Shown here: in pieces, positions 8,812-44,451 of the stretch
Layout of the letters: the number at the start of each line of letters is the position of its first letter
Position numbering within the stretch: the first letter of the stretch is position 1
DNA from: Synechococcus sp. PCC 6312
GTDB taxonomy: Bacteria > Cyanobacteriota > Cyanobacteriia > Thermosynechococcales > Thermosynechococcaceae
Reading direction: 5' to 3'
Length of the DNA: 64,000 nt
Assembly (NCBI RefSeq): GCF_000316685.1
Contig: NC_019680.1
Location: 1,861,501 to 1,925,500, forward strand
Position numbers and translations under genes: made by a program
Notes under the pieces: generated by a model
Database searches by the model: none
What the model saw: only the letters and a program-made list of their open reading frames with translations
What the model was told of the DNA's origin: nothing

Positions 8812-9150
8812 TTAACCCGCCCAATTCTTAGAAGATTGATCTAAAACATAGGCAGCGACATTTTCAATTTGAGCTTCGCTTAATCGACCACCAAAAGCAG
8901 GCATTGCGTTTTTCCCATTTTGGACTTGATACATAATGGCATCAGCAGAGTTCATCCCAAACTGCTCTAGGGCCTCTTTTTTGAGGGTTTTGTTGGCCAT
9001 CACGACATTACCACCGCCCATGTGACAGGCTGCACAGTTAGCACTGAATACCTTGGCTCCATCAGCAATATCAGCCGCAAATGCCGGGGTACTCAGCCAA
9101 GTCGTTAAGGTCACTAGGGTCAAAGCCAGGATCGTTAATAACGTTTTCAC
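8812..9150 (-). CDS. petJ: Cytochrome c6
   Basis: Soluble lumenal c-type cytochrome that carries electrons from cytochrome b6f to photosystem I. Signal peptide covers residues 1-25 (hydrophobic core, cut after PAFA), mature protein starts [10 protein letters not shown]. Haem motif CAACH at about residues 39-43 and sixth ligand Met in MPAFGG. The length of 112 residues fits. It is the third gene of psbV-psbV2-petJ on the minus strand, separated by 152 bases from psbV2, and has its own downstream terminator. Confidence 0.96.
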
Positions 9151-9302: not shown

Positions 9303-9854
9303 TTAAGGAGCTGAATCAGCAAAGGTTTCTGTTCCCCAACCCGGAGCCACGGATGCAGCTCGAAGGATAAATGCAGCTAATTCTTCCAATTGCTCAGTCG
9401 TTAACCAGTTTTCTGGGACTTCTCGGCACCAGTAGCTTTCTTCGCTTCCATCATAGGTCATGGGGAGGCGTTGAAAAGCCACCAAACTGGCAATACTGTC
9501 TCGGGGTGGGGCTGCTCCCTGAAGGTCTTTTAAGGATAAAGAGACAAGGGGATTCGGGAGAGTGGCCCCGCCAACATGGCAGTTTTTGCAATTTTCTTCA
9601 AACAGACGTTTTCCTTGGGTTAACTCGGCTGGAGTAAACTCTCGGGTAGCACCTGTGGCATCTAGGGGCAAACTGACGGGTTGAGTGGCCTTGAGATATT
9701 GAGACACATAGCCATCAATCCCATTGACCGCCCAGGCCGGGTTACCCCAAGCAAAACTCCAGGCCAAGCAACTAACAACTAATGCTGTGATGCCAACCTG
9801 GAGCCAGGGGATTATTTTTGCAAGGGTGGGGAGTAATTGCGGATAGTTATTCAT
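9303..9854 (-). CDS. psbV2: Cytochrome c-550-like protein PsbV2
   Basis: Secreted c-type cytochrome related to PsbV. A long N-terminal hydrophobic segment (about 20-42, ending NPAWA) is a signal peptide or anchor. The haem motif is CKNCH in ENCKNCHVGG. Where PsbV has its sixth-ligand His (EVHPS), this protein has Cys in YWCREVPENW; a Cys/His-ligated haem has been reported for Thermosynechococcus PsbV2. The C-terminus is shorter than in PsbV and ends in ETFADSAP. It lies 15 bases downstream of psbV. Its function is unknown; some evidence suggests it can partly replace PsbV. Confidence 0.9.
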   Translation of the reverse strand: MNNYPQLLPTLAKIIPWLQVGITALVVSCLAWSFAWGNPAWAVNGIDGYVSQYLKATQPVSLPLDATGATREFTPAELTQGKRLFEENCKNCHVGGATLPNPLVSLSLKDLQGAAPPRDSIASLVAFQRLPMTYDGSEESYWCREVPENWLTTEQLEELAAFILRAASVAPGWGTETFADSAP

Positions 9855-9869
9855 TCAGGTTAATTAGAT

Positions 9870-10361
9870 TTAGTAATAGACCTTGCCGCCGCCCCATTTT
9901 TCACCCAGGATTTTGGGAGCCACCAGGATGTGACCGGCAATGTCAGCTAAGTCTTTATCGGTCAAGTTCCGCATCTTCGGAAAGATATCGGCGCTCTTGA
10001 GGCTGGGGTGAACTTCGGCAATGGACTCTTCCCCATCATAGGTAGTTGGGTCTTTCATGTAGTCCACCAGGCCAGTAATACTATCCCGAGGTGGAGTCGC
10101 CAGGGCCAAGGTTTCTGTTGCCAAGTCAAGGCTAGGATTAGTTTTTGTTACCCCGCCCACATGGCAAGTGGCACAGGCATAGTTAAATAACCGTTGCCCT
10201 TCGTCATATTGTTGTTTGGTTAAGGTAATGGATTTCCCTTGGCTATCGAAAGGAACAGTTAACACATCGGCCGTAAGTTCAGCCGCCAGCGCGGTTCCCG
10301 TCAACACTTGCCAGGTACAGAGGATCAGGGCCGCCGCCAGCCAGAAGCATCGTCTCAGCAT
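9870..10361 (-). CDS. psbV: Cytochrome c-550, PSII extrinsic subunit PsbV
   Basis: Lumenal PSII subunit that stabilises the Mn4CaO5 cluster and its chloride. Start chosen at 10361 (MLRRCFWLAAALIL) because GGAGA lies just upstream and the signal peptide then ends normally at ALAAE; a longer frame upstream is not plausible. Mature protein begins AELTADVLTVPFDSQGK. Haem motif CATCH, with the distal His in IAEVHPSLKSADIFPKMRNLT, and the conserved C-terminus GEKWGGGKVYY. First gene of psbV-psbV2-petJ. Confidence 0.96.
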   Translation of the reverse strand: MLRRCFWLAAALILCTWQVLTGTALAAELTADVLTVPFDSQGKSITLTKQQYDEGQRLFNYACATCHVGGVTKTNPSLDLATETLALATPPRDSITGLVDYMKDPTTYDGEESIAEVHPSLKSADIFPKMRNLTDKDLADIAGHILVAPKILGEKWGGGKVYY

Positions 10362-43956: not shown

Positions 43957-44451
43957 ATGCAAGTCAAAGTTTTATCGGTAATCACAATTCTTGGCCTGGG
44001 TTTGAGCCTCGGGGCCTGTGGTGGCAGTTCGGACACAACCAGCTCAGCGCTATCTCCAGCCAGTCCGTCCCCAGAAATGTCTAGCCCTAGTCCTGAAGTT
44101 GCTAATTCAGTCACGAATGCCGAACCCTCAGATGGTCATGGTCAAGGCGGACAAGTGATTGAAACCGGGAAATACCATTTAGAACTCCTGGTCGCAGAAG
44201 AACCCGCTGGTCTGCACATTGACTTTTTTATCCAAGAAGGAGAAGCTCACACCCCTGTTCCCGATGCTCAAGTTGTCGGACAGTTACAACTCCCCGGTGG
44301 CAGCCAGAAAACCCTAGATTTTCAATACAGTGATGCCGACAAACACTACACGGCCTACCTGACTGATGCACCTGCGGGAGAATATCGTTTGGTTGTTCTG
44401 ACCGATATTCGGGGTGAGAAAATTAATGGTCGGTTTACCTTTACGCCTTAA
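43957..44451 (+). CDS. Small lipoprotein (CopC-position gene)
   Basis: A 164-residue secreted lipoprotein. Signal sequence with lipobox LSLGAC at about residues 15-20, Ser/Pro-rich linker (about 25-55), then a beta-rich domain starting ETGKYHLELLVAEEPAGLH with a His in DADKHYTAY. GAGG precedes the ATG at 43957. It is 33 bases downstream of the pump gene, the position held by copC in Synechocystis copBAC, so a role in periplasmic metal handling is plausible. The domain itself is not recognised. Confidence 0.75.
   Translation: MQVKVLSVITILGLGLSLGACGGSSDTTSSALSPASPSPEMSSPSPEVANSVTNAEPSDGHGQGGQVIETGKYHLELLVAEEPAGLHIDFFIQEGEAHTPVPDAQVVGQLQLPGGSQKTLDFQYSDADKHYTAYLTDAPAGEYRLVVLTDIRGEKINGRFTFTP

Follow-up and report, generated by a model that had tools for sequence, protein, structure and literature searches.

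The psbV2 gene of Synechococcus sp. PCC 6312 occupies positions 9303..9854 on the minus strand of the window, i.e., the entire 64,000-nucleotide stretch of DNA that was analysed, and encodes a precursor of 183 aa with an ATG start in the list of open reading frames (ORFs). It is flanked on the same strand by psbV (cytochrome c550, 9870..10361, minus strand; TIGR03045, 243 bits) and by petJ (cytochrome c6, 8812..9150, minus strand, GTG start; NF045930, 163 bits, with a cut-off of 135), in the order psbV, 15 nt, psbV2, 152 nt, petJ. The listed psbV ORF starts at GTG 10478; the likely ATG, which yields a product of 163 aa, is 39 codons further in, at 10361, and the TIGR03045 match starts close to it, at residue 41 of the longer reading frame. 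Of the 140 PsbV2 loci compared here, 133 have psbV upstream in the same orientation and 69 have a petJ-like gene within the downstream flank; among the seven loci that lack an upstream psbV, the contig ends there in two, and in five the 1.5 kb flank contains none. The two genes are described as tandem psbV1/psbV2 in Thermosynechococcus in a passage of PMC7005997 and, in a passage of PMC8832068, as tandem in Leptodesmis and separate in Thermoleptolyngbya. In the window, psbV2 is very likely co-transcribed with psbV; this arrangement is not general, given that the genes lie apart in Thermoleptolyngbya and that 5 of the 140 loci have no flanking psbV. A scan of the region for promoters and terminators detected no more sites than were found in shuffled sequences.

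The product of ORF 9303-9854 (minus strand) scores 231 bits with TIGR03046 (the NCBIfam equivalog PS_II_psbV2), well over the cut-off of 148.35, and only 90.6 bits with the PsbV equivalog TIGR03045, the cut-off for which is 177.75; the match to the Pfam family Cytochrom_C550 yields 144.6 bits. The N-terminus looks, by eye, like a signal peptide (residues 1 to approximately 42, ...AWA|VNGIDG), so that the mature protein would start at Val43. Among the 19 PDB sequences that match at an E-value of 0.001, the closest is 4lji_A (232 bits, E 3.6e-68, residues 45-183), which, according to the title of the entry, is the crystal structure of PsbV2 from T. elongatus, released in 2013. A model of the mature protein predicted with AlphaFold2 from an alignment of 40 sequences (pLDDT 90.5, pTM 0.87) retrieves the same structure as the top match both with Foldseek (E 2.6e-23, TM 0.90, 76% identity) and with VIA-align (Z 25.5, rmsd 1.0 over 133 residues). 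The PsbV chains listed by VIA-align follow, with Z between 14.3 and 17.9, and cytochromes c6 lower still. Thus, the preliminary description of this ORF as PsbV2 holds, on the strength of the equivalog score and of the top match to 4lji in both sequence and fold: the protein is an ordinary member of a named family, the structure of which has been public since 2013, and the annotation of this part of the window, psbV2 within a psbV-psbV2-petJ cluster, is settled.

Three known systems can be compared with this protein. PsbV2 of T. elongatus is alike in sequence, fold, the place of the cysteine discussed below and the gene order after psbV; identity over the aligned region is about 75%, and the T. 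elongatus protein carries Lys and Ser in the places of Met132 and Trp142. PsbV, or cytochrome c550 (TIGR03045; 1mz4, 1e29 and photosystem II entries), has the same fold and the same CxxCH half but differs in its distal histidine ligand, a longer loop after the ligand and a C-terminal tail of its own, and belongs to a separate clade. The engineered Nostoc cytochrome c6 M58C (4h0j), in which the ligand was changed from Met to Cys, matches the model with a Foldseek E-value of 2.4e-4 and a VIA-align Z of 12.1; however, it is man-made, is a c6 rather than a c550, and contains neither the N-terminal nor the loop features of c550.

The haem-attachment motif CKNCH (9576..9590, minus strand, residues 89-93) includes His93 (mature His51), the proximal haem ligand; C89, C92 and H93 are each present in 140 of the 140 PsbV2 rows of the alignment. 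The segment YWCREVPENW corresponds to residues 141-150 and contains Cys143 (mature Cys101; codon 9426..9428, minus strand), the putative distal ligand, adjoined by Arg144 (codon 9423..9425, minus strand), which is Arg in 138 and Gln in 2 of the 140 rows. These counts come from a MAFFT alignment of 281 PsbV and PsbV2 ORFs, taken from loci in those 142 of the 388 sampled class genomes that exceed the PsbV2 cut-off. By best BLAST hit, 151 rows were labelled PsbV2, and 11 that lack the Cys column were dropped to give 140: seven are the upstream PsbV of genomes of families f14, f30 and f33, and G026 contributes a spurious ORF; a further two are PsbV2 sequences that pass the cut-off but are truncated, by the contig end in G010 and by a reading-frame break in G013, and the last is a broken PsbV2 that scores under the cut-off (G246). 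The Cys143 column is Cys in all 140 PsbV2 rows and in none of the 130 rows labelled PsbV, which excludes chance; the next column is His in 127 of the 130 PsbV rows and a gap in the other three. In the neighboring psbV product, this histidine is that of EVHPSLKS, identified as the distal ligand by alignment, so that Cys143 sits one column ahead of it. Model residues 3..135 align with residues 2..134 of the 4lji chain, which places Cys143 at mature position 101 and His93 at mature position 51, and in a further alignment the same column is invariant as C102.

The loops that carry the ligands differ between the two families, and each has a nearly fixed length. From the Gly of the Y-D-G motif to the ligand, there are 7 residues in 139 of the 140 PsbV2 rows (6 in one), compared with 8 in 127 and 10 in 9 of the 136 PsbV rows. 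From the ligand to a shared Trp, there are 30 residues in PsbV2 (126 of the 133 rows where the motif was found; a count of 29 to the Gly that precedes the Trp, with one added) versus 38 in PsbV (111 of 120 such rows), a stretch shorter by about 8 residues in PsbV2. Apart from Cys143, the only invariant His, Met or Cys columns in the 140 PsbV2 rows are those of CxxCH, making it very likely from these alignments that the haem iron is held by His93 and Cys143, in place of a distal histidine; in the window's protein, the His of CKNCH is the sole histidine. That another residue, such as Met132 of PMTYDG, a Lys or a Tyr, is the ligand and the cysteine is conserved for a different reason appears most unlikely: Met132, 11 residues ahead of Cys143, is the only other His/Met-rich column, but it is Met in just 93 of the 140 rows, which led to its rejection, the other rows mostly carrying Leu, Arg, Thr, Lys or Gln, with Lys in the solved T. 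elongatus protein, whereas Cys143 is invariant, lies within one residue of the place of the PsbV histidine and belongs to a protein that a passage of PMC4423706 counts among Cys-coordinated c-type cytochromes.

The same passage, which cites Suga et al. (2013), the paper on the PsbV2 structure, alongside such cytochromes and concerns the T. elongatus protein, bears out the preliminary description where it mentions an earlier report of a Cys ligand in Thermosynechococcus PsbV2. The check proposed there, an alignment with the structurally characterised PsbV2, puts the T. elongatus cysteine at the same place (YSCRRV compared with YWCREV), and the further claim that a Cys replaces the distal His of PsbV proved correct to within one alignment column, with Cys in 140 of 140 rows. 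Mature His51 and Cys101 are also the two PsbV2 haem ligands that Suga et al. reportedly described in 2013. The identity as PsbV2 and the His/Cys ligation, taken jointly, can be regarded as very likely. The literature search, with subscription journals mostly outside its reach, found no family-wide survey of this cysteine, and the papers that were reached discuss PsbV2 mostly for Thermosynechococcus; the present survey shows a wide spread, with the cysteine retained in all rows long enough to include it.

PsbV2 exceeds the cut-off in 142 of the 388 genomes of the class and does not in the other 246. It was found in 24 of the 43 families represented by the 382 listed genomes, with no over-cut-off match in several large families (f2, 0/62; f13, 0/56; f24, 0/38; f32, 0/23), and a sample of 38 genomes from across the phylum outside the class yielded no PsbV2 match at all. 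In a named collection, 105 relatives were confirmed and 80 of these were kept; their records include Microcoleus, Leptolyngbya, Phormidium, Acaryochloris and Gloeomargaritaceae. In the window's own family, 4 of the 29 genomes have no over-cut-off match, among them G009 and G006, which are 99-100% complete. It had been suggested that the presence of psbV2 supports the taxonomic placement of this DNA; given the occurrence in 24 of 43 families and the gaps within the window's own family, this suggestion is not supported. The gene is a weak taxonomic marker and says little on placement in or near Thermosynechococcus. Carriage of psbV2 by phages or plasmids was also considered and rejected: none of the 26 stretches matched in a scan of IMG/VR encodes a relative, and the plasmid collection gave no nucleotide match. 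At one locus (L157, G246:C225), psbV2 is broken, the N-terminal portion with CxxCH ending early and the remainder matching in another frame with a stop; this is a draft assembly, and the break could reflect either error or decay.

Phylogenetic analysis places PsbV2 on one side of a branch that sets it apart from PsbV, with an SH-aLRT of 99 (68 rows); the branch has support of 100/100 when PetJ is included (58 rows). When the input is shortened to the stretch that starts 20 residues ahead of CxxCH and stops at the YDG motif, which removes the ligand loop and the C-terminus, the branch is retained at 100/99 (52 rows, 68 columns), and hence the grouping is independent of the ligand loop. So far as these sequences go, PsbV2 is one clade separate from PsbV. 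When the tree is rooted with PetJ, a distant outgroup (branch of 1.8), PsbV is recovered as one clade in 0 of 200 bootstrap trees, so that the root is not assigned to the branch separating the two families; it is possible that PsbV2 arose from within PsbV.

The age of PsbV2 was assessed against a tree of threonyl-tRNA synthetase (ThrRS) rooted on other classes of the phylum, with G038, G045, G388 and G029 left out. A group of 18 other rows of the class (97/96) excludes families f14, f30, f33, f5 and f29, and the split of f14, f30 and f33 from the rest has weak support (53/40). All 18 genomes from these five early-branching families encode PsbV2, in each case with the cysteine. The common ancestor of the class probably already had PsbV2, with several subsequent losses, the deepest ThrRS split being weak and the root between PsbV and PsbV2 unplaced. 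Families f14, f30 and f33 are believed to be Gloeobacterales. No Psb27 match was detected in any of their nine genomes, compared with nine of the nine other genomes searched (eight over the cut-off and one under), and a passage of PMC7368068 states the same situation for Gloeobacter.

Two side observations emerged from these comparisons. In exactly the nine genomes of f14, f30 and f33, the distal histidine of PsbV is located at position +10 from the YDG Gly instead of the +8 found in 127 others (the nine rows are L035, L038, L039, L071, L076, L086, L146, L148 and L154), i.e., the approach to the ligand is two residues longer in these early-branching lineages. In addition, the ThrRS sequences of L266 (G038) and L267 (G045) are 61% and 53% identical to that of the window, compared with 67-83% in the other class genomes searched, and pair together in a ThrRS tree that includes them, which suggests a second, transferred type; a further ThrRS copy (55%) is present in G028:C75.

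The observations on the window's protein and its relatives are best explained, with high probability for the reading as a whole, by a secreted cytochrome of the c550 fold with His/Cys ligation, encoded by a psbV-linked gene and having a photosystem-II-linked role. In detail, PsbV2 would be a monohaem c-type cytochrome, presumably exported to the lumen, with the haem bound by CKNCH and the axial ligands His93 (mature His51) and Cys143 (mature Cys101), the latter on the shortened loop; the His/Cys pair would produce a low-spin, low-potential haem. The protein would be linked to photosystem II on the lumenal side and overlap PsbV structurally in part, and the low potential would keep its haem out of the main electron-transfer chain. 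This specific role is put forward tentatively, as somewhat less than an even bet. According to Katoh et al. in 2001, psbV2 is said to partly cover for the loss of psbV in T. elongatus. In the same organism, the transcripts of both genes increase with irradiance, according to a passage of PMC5340862. A protein called PsbV2 is mentioned, in a passage of PMC9843442, in a far-red photosystem II preparation, where it is less abundant than PsbV1; the match to the present family is one by name. A passage of PMC12661325 notes that even the redox role of PsbV is unclear. The function of PsbV2 is dispensable, given that the 246 of 388 genomes without an over-cut-off PsbV2 belong to organisms that photosynthesise with PsbV or with neither protein.

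The lack of an over-cut-off PsbV2 in these 246 of the 388 genomes, along with the adjoining psbV in 133 of 140 loci, is also what would be expected if PsbV2 were a neutral backup of PsbV without a distinct role, its cysteine being a historical accident. Such a reading is unlikely in view of the two separate clades kept side by side, the residues conserved specifically in the 140 PsbV2 rows (C143, R144, W150, R165, A166 and A167) and the ligand loops, which differ between PsbV2 and PsbV and are each of fixed length; together, these features argue that the two proteins are under different, steady constraints.

Cysteine-ligated haems also occur in the thiosulfate-oxidising cytochromes SoxA and TsdA, which contain a His/Cys haem c, as PsbV2 is predicted to (passages of PMC4423706 and PMC9562282), but whose active complexes hold at least two haems and perform sulfur chemistry at the cysteine. 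Passages of PMC9562282 give potentials of -180 to -470 mV for the SoxA/TsdA His/Cys haems and argue that the ligand must have reasons beyond a low potential; the TsdA cysteine comes off the iron and becomes the reaction site, in a pocket lined by two conserved Arg, and replacement of the Cys by water raises the potential by more than 200 mV. The thiolate charge-transfer band of TsdA is placed near 1240 nm in the same paper. The preliminary statement that a Cys ligand lowers the potential stands with a qualification: low potential alone does not explain the ligand, because His/His haems such as that of PsbV can be low as well. On the argument made for SoxA/TsdA, a thiolate that reacts or switches is conceivable in PsbV2 too. 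By analogy, the PsbV2 haem might serve chemistry or sensing, with the thiolate leaving the iron under some condition and Arg144 positioning an anion or the thiolate. The conservation of Cys143 (140/140) and Arg144 (138/140), the TsdA precedent of a dissociating Cys with two pocket Arg and the insufficiency of low potential as an explanation (both from the passages of PMC9562282) are compatible with this scenario. Nevertheless, it appears quite unlikely: no SoxA/TsdA relationship is apparent among the matches listed, by sequence or by fold, the 183-aa PsbV2 has no partner haem or second domain, and Arg144 may do no more than contact the loop or one of the haem propionates. As to kinship, SoxA/TsdA are not among the 19 PDB sequences at an E-value of 0.001, nor among the 50 rows listed for each fold table, an absence that proves nothing.

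A broader and improbable version of this scenario would be that a Cys-ligated lumenal haem already belonged to the photosynthetic apparatus of the last common ancestor of the living photosynthetic cyanobacteria and was kept, with its invariant Cys and nearly invariant adjoining Arg, for a thiolate function beyond that of PsbV. If so, ligand-switching redox sensing or sulfur/oxygen chemistry, rather than electron carriage, might take place beside photosystem II. With a rare set of haem ligands, an invariant residue and many culturable species, PsbV2 is a good subject for direct biochemistry.

As regards the composition of the window, the G+C content falls to 42-45% over the 12 kb between positions 44001 and 56000, compared with 47-52% elsewhere in the window (per 4 kb).
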